Source of the DNA: Flavobacteriales bacterium
Lineage (GTDB): Bacteria; Bacteroidota; Bacteroidia; Flavobacteriales_F; PHOS-HE28
Length of the DNA: 35,710 bases
Direction: 5' to 3'
Assembly (NCBI GenBank): GCA_016788285.1
Contig: JAEUSW010000247.1
Span: 1-35,710 of the forward strand
Positions 3,297-19,929 of the stretch are shown piece by piece. The notes beneath the pieces are model-generated. The model ran no database searches. It was not told the DNA's origin and saw only the letters and a program-made list of their open reading frames with translations. A program made the translations under genes and the position numbers. How positions within the stretch are numbered: position 1 is the first letter of the stretch; every line of letters begins with the position of its first letter.

Positions 3297-5024
3297 ATGA
3301 AGAAAACCCTACTCGCATTGCTGCTCGGATCGGCCGGCCTTGGCGCTCAGGGCCAGGTGATCCTCAACGTGCTGGAGCCCGCGAACATCGCCGGCAGCTA
3401 CAGCTTCACCTGGGCCGATCCCGGTGGAGGCTGGGGCAGCCCCGACCTGAACGACCCGTTGAACGCGGTGACCGATACGCTGGCGCTGGCCACGGACGGC
3501 ACGGCGGCCGACAGCCTGTGCTGCAACCCGTTGACGAACGGCCCGGACGTGGCCGGCAAGATCGCCGTGATCTACCGCGGTGATTGCGAATTCGGAGCGA
3601 AAGCCCTGAATGCCCAGAACGCGGGCGCAGTGGCCGTGTTCATCATCAACCGCGTGGCCGGTGCGCCCGTGGCGATGGGGGCCGGCGCGCAGGGCGCGAA
3701 CGTCACCATCCCCGTGGCCATGATCACCCTGGAGGACGGCATCGAGGTCGAGGATGAGCTCGAGGCCGGCACCCCGGTGGTCGCCTTCCTGGGCTCCATC
3801 AACAATTTCTTCCAGTACAACCTCAGCGCCTACCGTCCCGATGTGCTGGTGGCGCCGGCCAGCGGCCAGCCCGCACTGGTGTCCCAGAACGCCAGCGAGT
3901 TCAGTGTGGAACTGGGCGTGTGGATCCACAACTACGGCACGGCCGACCAGCCCGATGCGAGCCTGAACGCGAAAGTGGAACAGAATGGCACCGTGCTCTA
4001 CGACCAGACCTCGACCGGAACGGCCATCGCCTCCGGCGACAGCTTGTTCGTGACCCTGCCGCCATTCTCGCAGGCAAGCTACACGGACGCTTTGTACACG
4101 GTGACCTACAGCATCTCCTCCGGGTCCTTCCCGGATGAGTTCATGGCGGACAACTCGTTCACCTTCACCTTTCGTGTGGACTCGGTGCTGAGCTATGCGC
4201 CGATCGACCCTTTGACAGGGAAGCCCACGCCCAATGCCCACTACCGTCCTGGGGATGACCTCGACGGCTTCCAATCCTGCATCCACTTCCAGAACGCCAA
4301 TGCCAGCCGGATGGCGGCAACGGGCATCTACACCAGCGCGACCACCGCCACGGGGACCACGCTCGATGGCGAGTTCATCGGTGTGCGTGCGTACGAGTGG
4401 GCGGACAGCTTCACGGGACTGAGCGACCCGAACTTCCCGGCGCAGACCGCCTACACCTTGGTGGAAGAGGCCACGGGCGAGTACTACTACCAGTCCGACC
4501 TTCAAGGCGAGGTCGTTTTCGTGCCCTTCCAGGACCCGCTGGTGTTGCTGGACAACACCCGCTACCTCTTCTGCGTGTACACGCTCACCGATGCGATGTT
4601 CGTAGGCTACGACGCCTCGCTGGACTACGATGAGCACACCACCCTGTACGACCAGCCGGTGTCGCTGATCGAGGATGGAGGTACCTGGTTCAACGTGGGT
4701 TTCGGCACGGATGTCACCAGCGCCATCGGTGTGGAGATGATCCCGGCCGGGAACATCGGGATCAACGAACTGAACAGCGTCGACGTGACGCCCTACCCCA
4801 ACCCGACCACGGACATGATCCGCGTGCCGCTTGCGGGCCTCACCGGGGCGGCCGACCTGCGCATCGTGGACCAGACCGGCAAGCTGGTGGCCGATCGCCG
4901 CGTCAACATCGCCAACGAGGTCCTCGTGCTGGACGTGACCGGTCTTTCCGGGGGCACCTACCAGTTCGCGCTCAACTTCCAGGATGGTGGCCGGACCACC
5001 TTCCGGGTGGTGGTGACCAAGTGA
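3297..5024 (+). CDS. secreted PA-domain protein with T9SS type A sorting domain
   Basis: A 575-aa exported protein. Residues 1-20 form a signal peptide (MKKTLLALLLGSAGLGAQGQ). Residues about 60-160 are a PA (protease-associated) domain: GKIAVIYRGDCEFGAKALNA and GAVAVFIIN are typical, along with the DSLCCNPL segment containing adjacent cysteines. The middle (about 165-490) is beta-rich with no recognised catalytic motif. The last 85 residues, from VTPYPNPTTDMI to FRVVVTK, are a type A C-terminal sorting domain, which directs export through the type IX system and anchoring at the surface. PA domains usually accompany peptidases, but no peptidase motif is visible, so the role is likely binding or structural. 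A strong terminator follows, so it is probably transcribed alone. Confidence 0.88.
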   Translation: MKKTLLALLLGSAGLGAQGQVILNVLEPANIAGSYSFTWADPGGGWGSPDLNDPLNAVTDTLALATDGTAADSLCCNPLTNGPDVAGKIAVIYRGDCEFGAKALNAQNAGAVAVFIINRVAGAPVAMGAGAQGANVTIPVAMITLEDGIEVEDELEAGTPVVAFLGSINNFFQYNLSAYRPDVLVAPASGQPALVSQNASEFSVELGVWIHNYGTADQPDASLNAKVEQNGTVLYDQTSTGTAIASGDSLFVTLPPFSQASYTDALYTVTYSISSGSFPDEFMADNSFTFTFRVDSVLSYAPIDPLTGKPTPNAHYRPGDDLDGFQSCIHFQNANASRMAATGIYTSATTATGTTLDGEFIGVRAYEWADSFTGLSDPNFPAQTAYTLVEEATGEYYYQSDLQGEVVFVPFQDPLVLLDNTRYLFCVYTLTDAMFVGYDASLDYDEHTTLYDQPVSLIEDGGTWFNVGFGTDVTSAIGVEMIPAGNIGINELNSVDVTPYPNPTTDMIRVPLAGLTGAADLRIVDQTGKLVADRRVNIANEVLVLDVTGLSGGTYQFALNFQDGGRTTFRVVVTK

Positions 5025-5043: not shown

Positions 5044-5075
5044 GAAGCGCGGGCCGGGCCCGCGCTTCTTTTTTT
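5044..5075 (+). terminator. intrinsic terminator
   Basis: GAAGCGCGGGC (5044-5054) pairs perfectly with GCCCGCGCTTC (5058-5068) around a CGG loop, followed by seven Ts. This 11-bp GC-rich stem and T-run lie 19 bases after the stop of the PA-domain gene: a textbook Rho-independent terminator. Confidence 0.93.
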
Positions 5076-6506: not shown

Positions 6507-7004
6507 ATGCACGCCATCACCCTCCGCTTCCTCGCGGAACCCACGGACGTGAACTATGGCGGCATGGTGCACGGGGGTGCGGTGATGCGGTGGATCGACC
6601 AGGCCGGGTATACCTGCGCGGTGAACTGGAGCGGCCGGTACTGCGTCACGGTCTACGTGGGCGGCATCCGGTTCCATCACCCGATCCGGATCGGACACCT
6701 CGTGGAGGCCGAGGCCCGGCTCATCCACACCGGGACCACCAGCATGCACATCGCGGTGGACATCCATGCACGGGACCCGCGGACCAATGATCGCGTGAAG
6801 ACCACCCATTGCATCATCGTCTTCGTGGCCATGGATGACGATCGGGCCCCGGTGGCCGTTCCCCGGTGGATCCCGGACACGGACGAGGAGAAGGCCCTTA
6901 GCGCCTACGCGGTCCGGTTGATGGGCATGCGGCAGGAGATCGAGGAGGCCATGCGGCCGCACCGATCGGGCGATACAGGACCGGGCGGAGGCTCCACGGC
7001 TTAG
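6507..7004 (+). CDS. acyl-CoA thioesterase, hotdog fold
   Basis: A 165-aa member of the YciA/BACH-like hotdog thioesterases, which hydrolyse acyl-CoA to free acid and CoA. The active-site segment NYGGMVHGGAVMRWIDQAGYTCA has the catalytic Asp (in RWIDQAG) and the MVHGG turn; the second strand region VGGIRFHHPIRIGHLVEAEA is typical. The C-terminal 30 residues (GMRQEIEEAMRPHRSG onward) extend beyond the usual domain end. It overlaps nothing and starts three bases after yajQ. Its biological substrate range is not deducible. Confidence 0.9.
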   Translation: MHAITLRFLAEPTDVNYGGMVHGGAVMRWIDQAGYTCAVNWSGRYCVTVYVGGIRFHHPIRIGHLVEAEARLIHTGTTSMHIAVDIHARDPRTNDRVKTTHCIIVFVAMDDDRAPVAVPRWIPDTDEEKALSAYAVRLMGMRQEIEEAMRPHRSGDTGPGGGSTA

Positions 7005-7036
7005 GGCGGACGGCTTTCCGCGAGTGGACCGCCGGG

Positions 7037-7075
7037 AACGAGGAAGCGCGCCTTACGGGGCGCGCTTCGTTCGTT
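7037..7075 (+). repeat. TTACGG-loop hairpin 1
   Basis: GAAGCGCGCC (7043-7052) and GGCGCGCTTC (7059-7068) pair perfectly over 10 bp around TTACGG (7053-7058). AACGA (7037-7041) and TCGTT (7071-7075) extend the stem beyond a small internal loop. It lies 32 bases after the thioesterase stop and could end its mRNA, but there is no T-run. Confidence 0.75.
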
Positions 7076-7084
7076 CTCCCGATG

Positions 7085-7100
7085 CCGGCTTACGGGCCGG
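7085..7100 (+). repeat. TTACGG-loop hairpin 2
   Basis: CCGGC (7085-7089) and GCCGG (7096-7100) pair around TTACGG (7090-7095). The stem differs in sequence from hairpin 1 while the loop is identical. Confidence 0.65.
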
Positions 7101-7157
7101 GCCGGGGTCTTCAGGCGCCCAGGAGGGCAAGGACCCCGAACATCAGGTATGCGTGTT

Positions 7158-7173
7158 CGGCCTTACGGGGCCG
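7158..7173 (+). repeat. TTACGG-loop hairpin 3
   Basis: CGGCC (7158-7162) and GGCCG (7169-7173) pair around TTACGG (7163-7168). Confidence 0.65.
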
Positions 7174-7182
7174 GTTGTTCAA

Positions 7183-7200
7183 GAGGCCTTACGGGGCCTC
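7183..7200 (+). repeat. TTACGG-loop hairpin 4
   Basis: GAGGCC (7183-7188) and GGCCTC (7195-7200) pair perfectly around TTACGG (7189-7194), ten bases after hairpin 3. Confidence 0.7.
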
Positions 7201-7246
7201 GTGACAGTGGAACGCAATGGGCGTGCCAGAAGTTACGCTGGACCGG

Positions 7247-7309: not shown

Positions 7310-7633
7310 TCAGAAGACCGAACGCCCCTGCAGGAAGAGCACGAAAATGAAGGTCATCATGAAATGATGGACCAACAGCAGGACCGAGGCGAACGCGAGC
7401 ACGGTCTTGCCACTGCGCTTCAGTTCCGGGAACAGTTTCTTGTTGTTCAAGGCGATGATCGGCAGCGGCACGGTGGCCAGCAGAAAGGTCACCGCGAGCG
7501 CCTTGAACACGAACACATTGTCCAGCACTCCGAAGAACAAGTGGGCGTAGTAGAACACGAAGCCCAGGGAGGACAACAGAGCAAGCCGGACGAACATCTT
7601 GGCCTCGTAGACCATTTTGGCTTTTGTTTCCAT
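7310..7633 (-). CDS. small membrane protein, three predicted helices
   Basis: A 107-aa protein with a short basic N-terminus and three strongly hydrophobic segments: about residues 14-34 (FVRLALLSSLGFVFYYAHLF), 41-61 (VFKALAVTFLLATVPLPII) and 79-103 (LAFASVLLLVHHFMMTFIFV). Between helices 2 and 3 is a polar loop NNKKLFPELKRSGKT. No known family was recognised. An 82-base gap and a leader hairpin separate it from the upstream minus-strand operon, and a strong terminator follows, so it may be its own unit. Confidence 0.82.
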   Translation of the reverse strand: METKAKMVYEAKMFVRLALLSSLGFVFYYAHLFFGVLDNVFVFKALAVTFLLATVPLPIIALNNKKLFPELKRSGKTVLAFASVLLLVHHFMMTFIFVLFLQGRSVF

Positions 7634-7639
7634 GGGATA

Positions 7640-7666
7640 GACGCACCGCTCTTACGAGGTTGCGTC
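7640..7666 (-). other. leader hairpin with GTAA tetraloop
   Basis: On the minus strand the segment from GACGCAACC to GGTGCGTC folds to about ten pairs with one bulge and one A-G mismatch, closed by CTC-GTAA-GAG, a GNRA-type tetraloop. It lies six bases before the start codon of the 107-aa gene, so it could affect translation. On the plus strand the loop reads CTTACGAG, similar to the TTACGG hairpins downstream of the same gene. Confidence 0.4.
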
Positions 7667-7679
7667 CCCCAGGGTTCCG

Positions 7680-7691
7680 ACTTATCAACAG
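7680..7691. repeat. 12-mer ACTTATCAACAG, copy 1
   Basis: ACTTATCAACAG lies 25 bases after the stop of the 235-aa membrane protein gene (read on minus as CTGTTGATAAGT). The same 12 bases occur at 21358-21369. It contains TTATCAACA, one mismatch from the DnaA box TTATCCACA. Confidence 0.55.
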
Positions 7692-7715
7692 TGGCGCGGC
7701 TCTCCTGCAGGCAAC

Positions 7716-16412: not shown

Positions 16413-16805
16413 ATGGAACCGCTGATCTACGAAGGCACGGCCAAGACCCCCTCGATCCACTTCGATGCCGACCAGGGCCGTCTGGAGCTGAAGGGGCGCT
16501 CGATCCCCGAAAACTCCATCGATTACTACAAGCCCTTGATCGCCTGGGTGGATAAGTATGCCCGTGCGCCACGGCCATCCACGGTGGTGCATGTGCAACT
16601 GGAGTACTTCAACACCAGCAGCAGCAAGTGCATCCTGGACCTCTTCAAGAAGCTGGAGGCGATCCGCACCCAGGGCAATGAGCTCGCGGTGCATTGGCAC
16701 TACGAAGAGGATGACGAGGATATGCTGGAGGCCGGCGAGGACTACCAGGCCATCATCAACATCCCCTTCCGGATGATCCTTGTGAAGGACCAGGAGGGCG
16801 CCTAG
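16413..16805 (+). CDS. SiaC/DUF1987 family regulatory phosphoprotein
   Basis: A 130-aa cytoplasmic protein of the DUF1987/SiaC family. In Pseudomonas, SiaC is phosphorylated on a threonine by the kinase SiaB and dephosphorylated by the phosphatase SiaA, and controls a diguanylate cyclase. The conserved motif LEYFNTSSSKCILDLF is present, and its Thr is residue 68, the same number as the known phosphosite. The N-terminus TPSIHFDADQGRLELKGRSIPEN and C-terminus FRMILVKD are typical. The ATG at 16413 gives the family length; in-frame codons upstream are low quality. SiaA and SiaB genes are not in the window. Its TAG stop shares CTAG with the convergent ABC gene. Confidence 0.92.
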   Translation: MEPLIYEGTAKTPSIHFDADQGRLELKGRSIPENSIDYYKPLIAWVDKYARAPRPSTVVHVQLEYFNTSSSKCILDLFKKLEAIRTQGNELAVHWHYEEDDEDMLEAGEDYQAIINIPFRMILVKDQEGA

Positions 16806-19800
16806 GTGCCGCTGGACCGGCTGGATAGCCGCTGCACGATCGAGGGGAAGACCTCCGCCCGGAGCGCGATGGCGAAGGCCAGGGACATCAGCCACAACAC
16901 GATCATGTTGGCCCAGAACGTCGGGATACGGATCCCGCCGAGCCACTTCGCCGGCGCATAGAAGTGCGCTCCGAAGAAGCCCTTGCCTTGCGCCTCGAGG
17001 TAGATGGGATCGCTCTTGCGCACGAGGGCTCCACGATCGACGGCGATGACGTTCACATCGTTCTTGTTGGTGACGAACTCGGCCAGGCTTTCGTTGCGGT
17101 GCGCGTCCAACAGGGCGAAGTAGCGCACACGGGCCTCGGGCCCATCGGTGAGCCTGGCGATGAGCTGTTCCTTGGCCAGTTCGGCCTCCTTGTACATGCG
17201 GCGGTAGTGGACCGTGAGGTCGTTCAGCAGGCCGTCCACGGCATTGAGGGCGGTCTCGTCCACATGCCCCTCCGGCGTCATCCGGAGGTCCGGCACCACC
17301 AGACCGCTGATCCGGCCGGCCTCGGCCTGCAGCTCGTTGCGGAGGAGCTCCAGATCGCGCCCCCGTTGGGTCAGCTTGGCGGGATCGGTCTCCACCCCGC
17401 GCAGGTTCGTCACCCGGTGCTGCAGTTCGCGCACCCACAGGTCCTTCTTCCAATTGGCGGTCTTCATGCGCTGGTCCAGCGCATAGAACCGCCGCTCATA
17501 GGCATTGTCGACGAACTGGGTGACCGCGAGCCCCTCGTAGGCCCAGCGACTGGCCATCACGTTGCCGATCCAGGGGACACCCTGCTGGGACGAGAACCAG
17601 GGATGCAGCTTGTCGAAGCGCACGATGATCCCCGAGAAGAGCAGCTGCGGGATGATCAGCACCGGGATCACGATGTAGATCACCTTGGCACTGTTGAAGC
17701 TGGCGCTGACGTTGAGGCCAAGGACATTGGCGAAACAACTGGTGCTGAACAGGAGCGCCCAGTGCACGAAGGCCATGTCCTGGATCCCGAGCACCCGGTC
17801 GCCCACCACCACGAACAGCAGCGACTGGATCGCGGAGATGAGGAAGAGGATGGCGATCTTGCTCAACAGGTAGCTGTTGCGGTTCAAGGCCAGGAACTTC
17901 TCGCGCTGCAGGATCTTCCGGTCGCGGATGATCTCCTCGGCGGCCACGGTGAGCCCGAGGAACAGGGAGACGATGACGGCGATGAACAGGTACTGCGGGA
18001 TGTTGTCGTTGGCGCGGTAGATGTAGGTGGCGCCCTCCTCGCCCGCACCGTGGTAGCGCAGGAAGAAGGCCATGACGAAGGCGAGCACCGGGGCCTCCAG
18101 CAGGTTGATCAGCACGTACTGACGATTGGCCAGCTTGGCGAGGATGTCCCGCGTGAAGAAGACCTTGAGCTGGACGAGCCAGCCCGGCGCCTTGAACGTG
18201 CTCCGGGGCACGCTGCGTACCTCGGGCACCTGGGCCATGCGCCCCTCCATCTGGGCCTTGAACACCTCGTTCCAGGCCTCCGGGCTGATGCGGCGTTGAT
18301 CGGTCTCCATGCCGTACTCGTCCACCAGCTTGGCCTCCAGGATGTTGAAGATCTGCTCGGGGTTCACGTTGCCACAGGCCCTGCACTGGCCCACCTCGCT
18401 GTTCACCTGGCCGGTGACGCGCTTGAAGTACACCACGGACTCCACGGGATCGCCGTAGTACACCGGGTAGCCTTCCTGATCGATGAGGAGCAACCGGTCG
18501 AACAGCTTGAAGATGTCCGAGCTCGGTTGGTGGATCACCACGAAGACGATGCGTCCGCGGAGCGCGAGCTCCTTGAGCAGGTCCATGATGTTCTCCGAGT
18601 CGCGCGAACTGAGGCCGCTGGTGGGCTCGTCCACGAACAGCACACTGGGCTCGCGGATCAGCTCCAGGGCGATGTTGAGGCGCTTCCGCTGGCCGCCGCT
18701 GATCGTCTTTTCCAAGGGCGAGCCGACCTTCAGGTCCTTCGTATCGTAGAGGCCGAGCTGTTGCAGGAGCTTCAGCACGCGGTCGCCGATCTGTGCATCG
18801 GTGAGGTCGCCGAAGCAGAGCTTGGCGTTGTAGAAGAGGTTCTGGTACACCGAGAGCTCCTCGATGAGCAGGTCGTCCTGGCTCACGTGCCCGATGACAC
18901 CGCGGATGCGCCCGGCCTCGCGGTGCACGTCCACCCCGTTGATGGTGACATGGCCGGTGGTGGGCCTGAGGTTCCCGTTCAGCACATTGAGCAGGGTGCT
19001 CTTCCCACTGCCGCTGCCGCCCATGATGCCGACCAGCTTCCCGCTGGTCTCGGCCAGGTCAAGCTCATGGAGCCCAAGGCGGCCATTGGGGAAGGCGTAG
19101 GTGATCCGCTCGGCCTTGAACACAAGCCCGTCGCGCTGGCGCCCCTTCATGAAGCTGCCCAGGATGTCGCTGTAGTAGATCGGCCGGCCGTGCGGGGGCC
19201 TGATCGACGAGCCATTGCTGAGCACATAGTGGTGGCGGCCGTTCATCGGCTGCCCGTTCAGCAGCACCCGGTCCTGACCGAGGTAGCGCACCATGTACAG
19301 GTTCACGTTGGGCACATGCAGCACCCGGAGCTCCCCTTCCAGATGGGCGTGGAGATGGCGGGCCTGGGCGAGACCGTTCTCCAGGGCGGCATCGGCATAG
19401 AGCAAATGGGGTGAATCGACCCGTTCGCCAGCGGCCTGGGCCACGAACGCCTGGCAGCGCTCGAAGTCCTCCCGACCGATGTTGAAGGTCTCCGCCACGG
19501 TGTTGACGAACTCCTGCTCCTGCTCGGCCACCCCTCCTGCGTGGATGAACTCCAGCAGGTGCATGAGCACGATGAACTTCTGCCGCTGGGTGAGCTCCTC
19601 GTTCACCTGCACGCAGATGCGCAGTACACGCACGGAGTTCACCGAGATGCGCTTGCGTCCGGAGCGGCTCTCCCCACCGGTATGGTGGAACGCGGCCACA
19701 TGGGCATCGAACCGGGCGAGGTGCTCCTCGACCTGTTCGGCGGTGAACTGCTGACGCAGGAACCGGTCCAGCATCAGTCGCCCGGCAGGTCGACCGGTAC

Positions 19801-19870
19801 CGGCGGCCGCATCGGCCCGCGCGATGATCGCGAACAGTTGCAGCAGCGCGTTGAGGATCTTCTCGCTCAT
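16802..19870 (-). CDS. ABCG-type transporter with TerB-like and FHA-like N-terminal domains
   Basis: A 1022-aa half-transporter of the ABCG/White order (ATPase then membrane). Residues about 5-145 look TerB-like (IIARADAAAG, LMLDRFLRQQF), and 185-240 FHA-like (VRYLGQDRVLLNGQPM, YVLSNGSSIRPP). The ATPase has Walker A GGSGSGKST (about 284-292), signature SGGQRKR (near 391), Walker B VLFVDEP and H-loop VIHQPSSD. A CxxC (RACG) pair follows near 496. Five TM helices (about 580-755) are separated from a last TM (near 1000) by roughly 200 extracytoplasmic residues with coiled-coil propensity. N-terminal domain assignments are inferred. I prefer ATG 19870; an in-frame ATG at 19906 sits in a hairpin. 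Substrate is unknown. Confidence 0.92.
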   Translation of the reverse strand: MSEKILNALLQLFAIIARADAAAGTGRPAGRLMLDRFLRQQFTAEQVEEHLARFDAHVAAFHHTGGESRSGRKRISVNSVRVLRICVQVNEELTQRQKFIVLMHLLEFIHAGGVAEQEQEFVNTVAETFNIGREDFERCQAFVAQAAGERVDSPHLLYADAALENGLAQARHLHAHLEGELRVLHVPNVNLYMVRYLGQDRVLLNGQPMNGRHHYVLSNGSSIRPPHGRPIYYSDILGSFMKGRQRDGLVFKAERITYAFPNGRLGLHELDLAETSGKLVGIMGGSGSGKSTLLNVLNGNLRPTTGHVTINGVDVHREAGRIRGVIGHVSQDDLLIEELSVYQNLFYNAKLCFGDLTDAQIGDRVLKLLQQLGLYDTKDLKVGSPLEKTISGGQRKRLNIALELIREPSVLFVDEPTSGLSSRDSENIMDLLKELALRGRIVFVVIHQPSSDIFKLFDRLLLIDQEGYPVYYGDPVESVVYFKRVTGQVNSEVGQCRACGNVNPEQIFNILEAKLVDEYGMETDQRRISPEAWNEVFKAQMEGRMAQVPEVRSVPRSTFKAPGWLVQLKVFFTRDILAKLANRQYVLINLLEAPVLAFVMAFFLRYHGAGEEGATYIYRANDNIPQYLFIAVIVSLFLGLTVAAEEIIRDRKILQREKFLALNRNSYLLSKIAILFLISAIQSLLFVVVGDRVLGIQDMAFVHWALLFSTSCFANVLGLNVSASFNSAKVIYIVIPVLIIPQLLFSGIIVRFDKLHPWFSSQQGVPWIGNVMASRWAYEGLAVTQFVDNAYERRFYALDQRMKTANWKKDLWVRELQHRVTNLRGVETDPAKLTQRGRDLELLRNELQAEAGRISGLVVPDLRMTPEGHVDETALNAVDGLLNDLTVHYRRMYKEAELAKEQLIARLTDGPEARVRYFALLDAHRNESLAEFVTNKNDVNVIAVDRGALVRKSDPIYLEAQGKGFFGAHFYAPAKWLGGIRIPTFWANMIVLWLMSLAFAIALRAEVFPSIVQRLSSRSSGT

Positions 19871-19899
19871 GAGGGGGTCCGCCGGGCAGGCCCGGAAAA

Positions 19900-19929
19900 G
19901 GAACATCCCTCTTTACGGGAGGGATGTCC
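19900..19929. repeat. TTTACGG-loop hairpin, fifth copy of the family
   Basis: GGAACATCCCTC (19900-19911) and GAGGGATGTCC (19919-19929) pair with one bulged A, giving an 11-bp stem around TTTACGG (19912-19918). It lies between two minus-strand genes, 26 bases after the stop of the secreted protein gene and 30 bases before the preferred ABC start. It shares the TTACGG loop with the array at 7037-7200. Confidence 0.6.

Follow-up and report, generated by a model that had tools for sequence, protein, structure and literature searches.

A predicted ECF-controlled small RNA with repeated CCGUAA hairpin loops in an uncultured genus of Flavobacteriales

Results

The window analysed in this study, a stretch of 35,710 nucleotides of Flavobacteriales DNA, carries a thioesterase-like gene on the plus strand (6507-7004) and a gene for a 107-aa protein on the minus strand (7310-7633). 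Between these two genes lie four inverted repeats with the plus-strand loop TTACGG, namely hairpin 1 (7043-7068, 10 bp stem), hairpin 2 (7085-7100, 5 bp), hairpin 3 (7158-7173, 5 bp) and hairpin 4 (7183-7200, 6 bp). A previous sequence-only reading of this DNA had noticed the repeats, and our analysis confirms both that their stems differ and that they are placed between the end of the plus-strand gene and the minus-strand gene; all four fall inside 164 nt as a single element. The hexamer as such shows no enrichment in the window (5 copies against 4.5 expected), and four of the five copies are hairpin loops within these 164 nt, a clustering far beyond chance. Genome-wide, CTTACGGG occurs at 21 sites, four of them at the locus, and seven of the 21 are flanked by a stem of at least 5 bp: the four at the locus and three intergenic hairpins elsewhere, whose stems measure 9-10 bp. 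Similarly, three of the only four CCTTACGGGG sites in the 3.6 Mb genome are found at the hairpin locus. The TTACGG hairpins are thus one locus with a few look-alikes and no dispersed family, so that the genome-wide count of TTACGG loops proposed in the earlier reading is the wrong test for a motif that is not genome-wide here. The fifth copy in the window, given earlier as 19900-19929, is real; it is a separate hairpin at 19903-19927 that looks like a terminator on the minus strand, where the loop CCGTAAA is followed by TTCCTTTTCC 3' of the stop codon of a minus-strand ORF. This hairpin also shares bases with the first ATG of ORF 16802-19906, which may truly begin further downstream.

The 107-aa product of gene 7310-7633 is hydrophobic, probably a membrane protein, and conserved in the genus, where the element adjoins or lies near relatives of this gene; searches with the protein gave no Pfam or NCBIfam match. 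Upstream of the gene, the sequence-only reading had seen a related hairpin, CTTACGAG (7640-7666). This stretch is better read as a conserved promoter of the type used by extracytoplasmic function (ECF) sigma factors, which usually serve envelope stress (7640-7663, minus strand; GCAAC, 15 bp, CGTC), and nearly every relative in which the preceding sequence can be read has these boxes before the gene. Because the ATG follows about 8 bp past the -10 box, the mRNA may be leaderless. Further upstream of the same gene, at about 7670-7700 in the window and also in many relatives (loci L033, L035, L039, L041 and L045), there are TTGTGGATAA-type sequences that resemble DnaA boxes.

The suggestion that the hairpins would be conserved in related genomes is borne out within narrow limits. 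When 98 relatives were searched at the DNA level, the element turned up only within the same genus, and a covariance model of the element core (R1) gives one strong match in 40 of 45 genus genomes, the same 45 genomes also serving as the order-level search set. In the window, R1 matches 7035-7151 with 68 bits and model R2 matches the element with 89 bits. Neither the 98-relative DNA search nor R2 over 149 Bacteroidia genomes revealed a full relative outside the genus, and two near-complete genomes (G018 and G025) lack the element at its expected position past the neighbour gene. Scanning named genome contigs gave 28 records. Of these, 27 are Bacteroidota MAGs, mostly under Flavobacteriales titles and with one under the label Chryseobacterium gleum, and the remaining one, a Rhodothermales MAG, is no relative by context. 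The earlier remark that no named family with this loop was known is also supported, since scans against Rfam 15, at the gathering threshold and with E values up to 10, gave nothing that reached the threshold. Several weak model matches were discarded: one on contig C116 falls on the terminator that ends an ECF sigma factor gene, one in G322 is coding sequence, and those in G503 and G507 have no CCGTAA or CTGTAA hairpin nearby. Within the window, R2 also weakly matches a perfect 11-bp hairpin at 5044-5068 (GAAGCGCGGGC/GCCCGCGCTTC, loop CGG), which lies 3' of ORF 3297-5024 and has its outer arm in common with hairpin 1.

Alignment of homologues shows that hairpins 1 and 2 are constant and that hairpin 2 sits inside a larger fold. 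In an alignment of 39 homologues 92.6% of cells pair and 25 of 34 base pairs change on both sides, although it was fitted to the model, and the 13 pairs with both-side change in the seed are the more independent figure. Both-side changes occupy 183 cells as against 64 in shuffles, none of 500 shuffles reaches the observed value, and slid controls remain far below. These results sustain the earlier view of a structured element under selection; its strand and anatomy had been given incompletely, as the RNA is most probably encoded on the minus strand, on which the loop reads CCGUAA.

The strand assignment comes mainly from a promoter that the earlier account did not include. ECF-type boxes, mostly [T/C]GNAAC and CGT[T/A] at 16-17 bp, stand directly upstream of the element on the minus strand in 38 of 38 homologues. 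In the window the -35 box is CGTAAC (7232-7237) and the -10 box CGTT (7211-7214), 17 bp from AAC. GNAAC is present in all 38 homologues, its G being invariant although the search pattern did not demand it; the -10 box is CGT[T/A] in 37 and TGT in one; and the spacing is 17 bp in 32 and 16 bp in six, with no conservation of the spacer sequence. An A lies 6-7 nt past the -10 box in 89% of these homologues, and the transcription start is predicted at about 7208. ECF promoters with a CGT -10 box have also been inferred in Flavobacterium psychrophilum (motif SM6; PMC9723704). The wobble pairs of the 39 homologues point the same way, with 46 G-U pairs on the minus strand against 29 A-C cells, which become G-U when the plus strand is read, or 45 against 20 when two mismatch-prone P3 columns are left out; the count from 17 sequences alone does not separate the strands.

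With the start taken from the promoter and the end from the terminator, the predicted small RNA would span 7208 to 7035 on the minus strand (about 174 nt), and its minus-strand fold has a z-score of -5.3. Its leader, whose length varies among homologues, contains hairpin 4 (7183-7200, 6 bp), which is seen only in the closest relatives, with a variant in G014, and hairpin 3 (7158-7173, 5 bp). A three-way junction (7078-7147) follows, defined by covariation in the 39 homologues: six of seven pairs of P1 (7141-7147 with 7078-7084), all eight pairs of P2 (7132-7138 with 7103-7109) and five of six pairs of P3 (7085-7100, the former hairpin 2) change on both sides. The last hairpin (7043-7068) reads as an intrinsic terminator, a perfect GC-rich 10-bp stem with a U-rich tail (7042-7035); all of its cells are paired over 39 homologues, four of its pairs change on both sides, and its tail is GCCUUUUC in many relatives and the weaker CUCGUUCC in the clade of the window. 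The earlier account had set the four hairpins apart from a duplicated terminator; in the present reading hairpin 1 is the predicted terminator of the RNA, hairpin 2 belongs to the junction, and hairpins 3 and 4 are clade-specific leader hairpins.

The contrast between a fixed loop and variable stems, which first drew attention to this locus, is upheld by the 39 homologues, in which the loop is conserved while the stems change with compensation. The P3 loop is CCCGTAAG in 35 of 39 homologues and CCTGTAAG in two, and the terminator loop is CCCGTAAG in 31 and CCTGTAAG in seven; one genome, G041, keeps the RNA with both loops changed. The leader carries two extra CCGUAA hairpins in the clade of the window and in G014, one in G007, G015 and G022, and hairpins with other loops in other species. 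Since the non-terminator CCGUAA hairpins have only about 4-7 bp, termination alone leaves their loop unexplained. No publication on this loop sequence turned up in a search of the literature. In sampled sequence of about 6.1 Mb, read on both strands and holding about 6,700 hexaloop hairpins with stems of at least 5 bp, CCGTAA/TTACGG is the only hexaloop that occurs on two neighbouring different stems, a figure that describes specificity and is no unbiased rate, as the motif itself led to some of the samples (G550 and the viral contigs) and the own-genome sample is biased to contigs with CTTACGGG.

Hairpins with this loop also occur beyond the genus. R2 weakly matched G550, an AT-rich genome of another Bacteroidia family, at an intergenic array of three CCGUAA hairpins (L255 1485-1585; G550:C7 about 103,130-103,220) on unrelated stems (CAAT/ATTG, TCAAC/GTTGA and AAAACCCAGC/GCTGGGTTTT) with a T-run at its end. 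A 400 kb sample of G550 holds 162 CCGTAA sites, of which four have a stem of at least 4 bp and three of these four are in the array; the loop caps one of 27 terminator-like hairpins there. Samples of G010, G017 and G008 contain no terminator-like hairpins with a CCGUAA loop beyond the small RNA locus. The Rhodothermales genome has tandem CCGUAA hairpins on unrelated stems, in arrays 3' of a protein gene. In viral contigs of T4-like phages, two tandem CCGUAA hairpins stand 12-20 nt after the major capsid gene (L282, L300, L332, L340, L354, L386, L398, L399, L400, L413, L414 and L418), which is truncated by the contig end in some of them. In a set of ten of these phages, both-side changes occur at nine of 15 stem pairs, and neither loop varies. 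In their nearest isolate relative, Flavobacterium phage immuto (61% identity), the post-capsid position is taken by an ordinary TTCG terminator. Within the genome of the window itself, a terminator GAACGCCGGC-CCGTAA-GCCGGCGTTC ends the gene of a 195-aa ECF sigma factor (L062 1492-1517, contig C116 of G000), and four close relatives keep it.

Discussion

The four hairpins at this locus are best read as parts of a previously undescribed small regulatory RNA encoded on the minus strand in an uncultured genus of Flavobacteriales. From the comparison of homologues, it is very probable that a small RNA gene is present, and nearly as probable that this gene is under ECF control; the predicted promoter, junction fold and terminator, together with selection on the CCGUAA loop, are well supported by the same comparison. 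A plus-strand role, in which the element would belong to the 3' UTR of the upstream gene or serve as its bidirectional terminator, with no separate RNA, has some appeal because the element begins shortly 3' of the stop codon of the plus-strand gene in many species, the plus strand also folds (z-score -4.7) and the plus-strand flank of hairpin 1 is T-rich too. However, that gene differs from species to species while the element stays constant, which makes the element unlikely to be its 3' UTR, and the conserved ECF boxes lie on the opposite side and are directed into the element. We set this improbable reading aside on the position of the promoter and on the wobble count from 39 sequences. The units are palindromic and repeated locally, as in REP/BIME-like or other mobile hairpins. 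Such a dispersed repeat, however, would be expected in many copies per genome, and these are not seen: the CCTTACGGGG sites are concentrated at the locus and each genome gives a single strong model match. We reject this explanation as next to impossible.

How the predicted small RNA would act is a matter of proposal. An ECF sigma factor would start a trans-acting RNA of about 175 nt at about 7208, the intrinsic terminator would end it at about 7035, and its CCGUAA hairpins, two to four per RNA, would serve as docking sites for a putative factor. GUAA is a GNRA sequence, and two extra pyrimidines before it could flip out, as in some protein-binding loops. The simplest candidate factor would be an RNA-binding protein recognising C(CYGUAA)G as such a GNRA-like loop with two extra pyrimidines, and the stress-induced RNA would titrate or recruit this factor, presumably in trans under envelope or related stress. 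An ECF-controlled small RNA whose CCGUAA hairpins dock a putative factor is, in our judgement, a likely explanation and the best one overall, whereas the docking function of the loop, taken by itself, is offered tentatively, at slightly less than an even chance. The 95% complete genome gave no match to CsrA (PF02599) or Hfq (PF17209) and no RRM_1 protein was found in it, so that no known partner is at hand. It encodes 17 proteins with sigma-70 region 2, and similar promoter motifs occur upstream of some of their genes, none of them decisive as a sign of autoregulation.

The invariant loops could be explained in other ways. Sigma-E small RNAs such as MicA and RybB pair with target mRNAs, and either the CCGUAA loops or a conserved internal loop of P2, GGCGUUAAAAG, might likewise be mRNA seeds. 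ECF control is typical of such RNAs, the loops are exposed as well as invariant, and Rfp18 of F. psychrophilum is predicted to act through a stem-loop (PMC9723704). This reading is nevertheless rather unlikely: in four relatives UUACGG is rare near start codons, with one occurrence against a median of six for permuted hexamers by crude gene calls, Hfq is lacking among the proteins found, and phages have the same loop in the 3' region of their capsid genes, an unlikely place for a trans seed. Alternatively, CCGUAA may do no more than close hairpins with a very stable cap and be favoured for this in terminators and 3' hairpins of Bacteroidota; its repetition would then have no specific partner, and the RNA would work through its other parts. 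The loop is indeed found on phage terminators and on the three other intergenic hairpins of this genome, including the one 3' of the ECF sigma factor gene. Yet it is uncommon on terminators in the sampled genomes, weak non-terminator hairpins carry it too, and no other hexaloop is reused on neighbouring different stems in the sampled sequence; we consider the stable cap a little less likely still than mRNA pairing. For the docking reading, other Bacteroidota and T4-like phages carry the same loop in RNAs unrelated to this one, and this recurrence suggests recognition by some component of the cell. It is conceivable, though we hold it with less confidence than docking within this RNA, that a putative RNA-binding factor reads CCGUAA hairpins as a recognition module across the phylum Bacteroidota and in its phages. 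If this is true, tandem hairpins would act as platforms for titration or docking, including those of an envelope-stress small RNA and of the T4-like capsid mRNA at its 3' end.

In protein-titrating RNAs such as CsrB, one and the same loop recurs on differing stems, and the number of copies varies. Like CsrB, CsrC and RsmZ, the element appears to be a separate intergenic RNA with a fixed loop motif on different stems whose number varies by species; in contrast to these RNAs, which have GGA loops, it has CCGUAA loops, an ECF promoter and only 2-4 units, and the CsrA partner of CsrB and RsmZ was not found in its genome. It shares with the sigma-E (ECF) small RNAs MicA and RybB a short intergenic gene, an ECF-type promoter and, by prediction, an intrinsic terminator, but differs in its large junction fold, in the lack of a sequence relation in Rfam scans and in the absence of Hfq from the proteins found in the genome. 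The guanidine-II (mini-ykkC) riboswitch has paired hairpins with conserved ACGR loops, which resemble TTACGG on the plus strand. This likeness is superficial, as cmscan reports no such riboswitch even at E 10 and the element lies after genes and not before one. By description only, Rfp18 is comparable as a strongly folded, genus-conserved small RNA of Flavobacteriales (PMC9723704). FopS and GibS of Bacteroides are likewise Bacteroidota small RNAs and are bound by an RNA-binding protein, although they combine a single-stranded 5' seed with a terminator and the protein is the RRM protein RbpB (PMC11697453), a type of protein (RRM_1) that our search of this genome did not find. By sequence comparison, the element is well supported as a new family within a known kind of small RNA, and its unusual module of repeated loops is also found outside that family.

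Only a small number of Bacteroidota small RNAs are understood, and the usual partners were not found in this genome. This study delineates a well-bounded, predicted ECF-controlled small RNA family in uncultured sludge-type Flavobacteriales, together with a specific candidate recognition motif, C-CYGUAA-G, that is common to other Bacteroidota and phages. Should a protein read this loop, it would represent a new regulator at the post-transcriptional level, and phages may make use of it.
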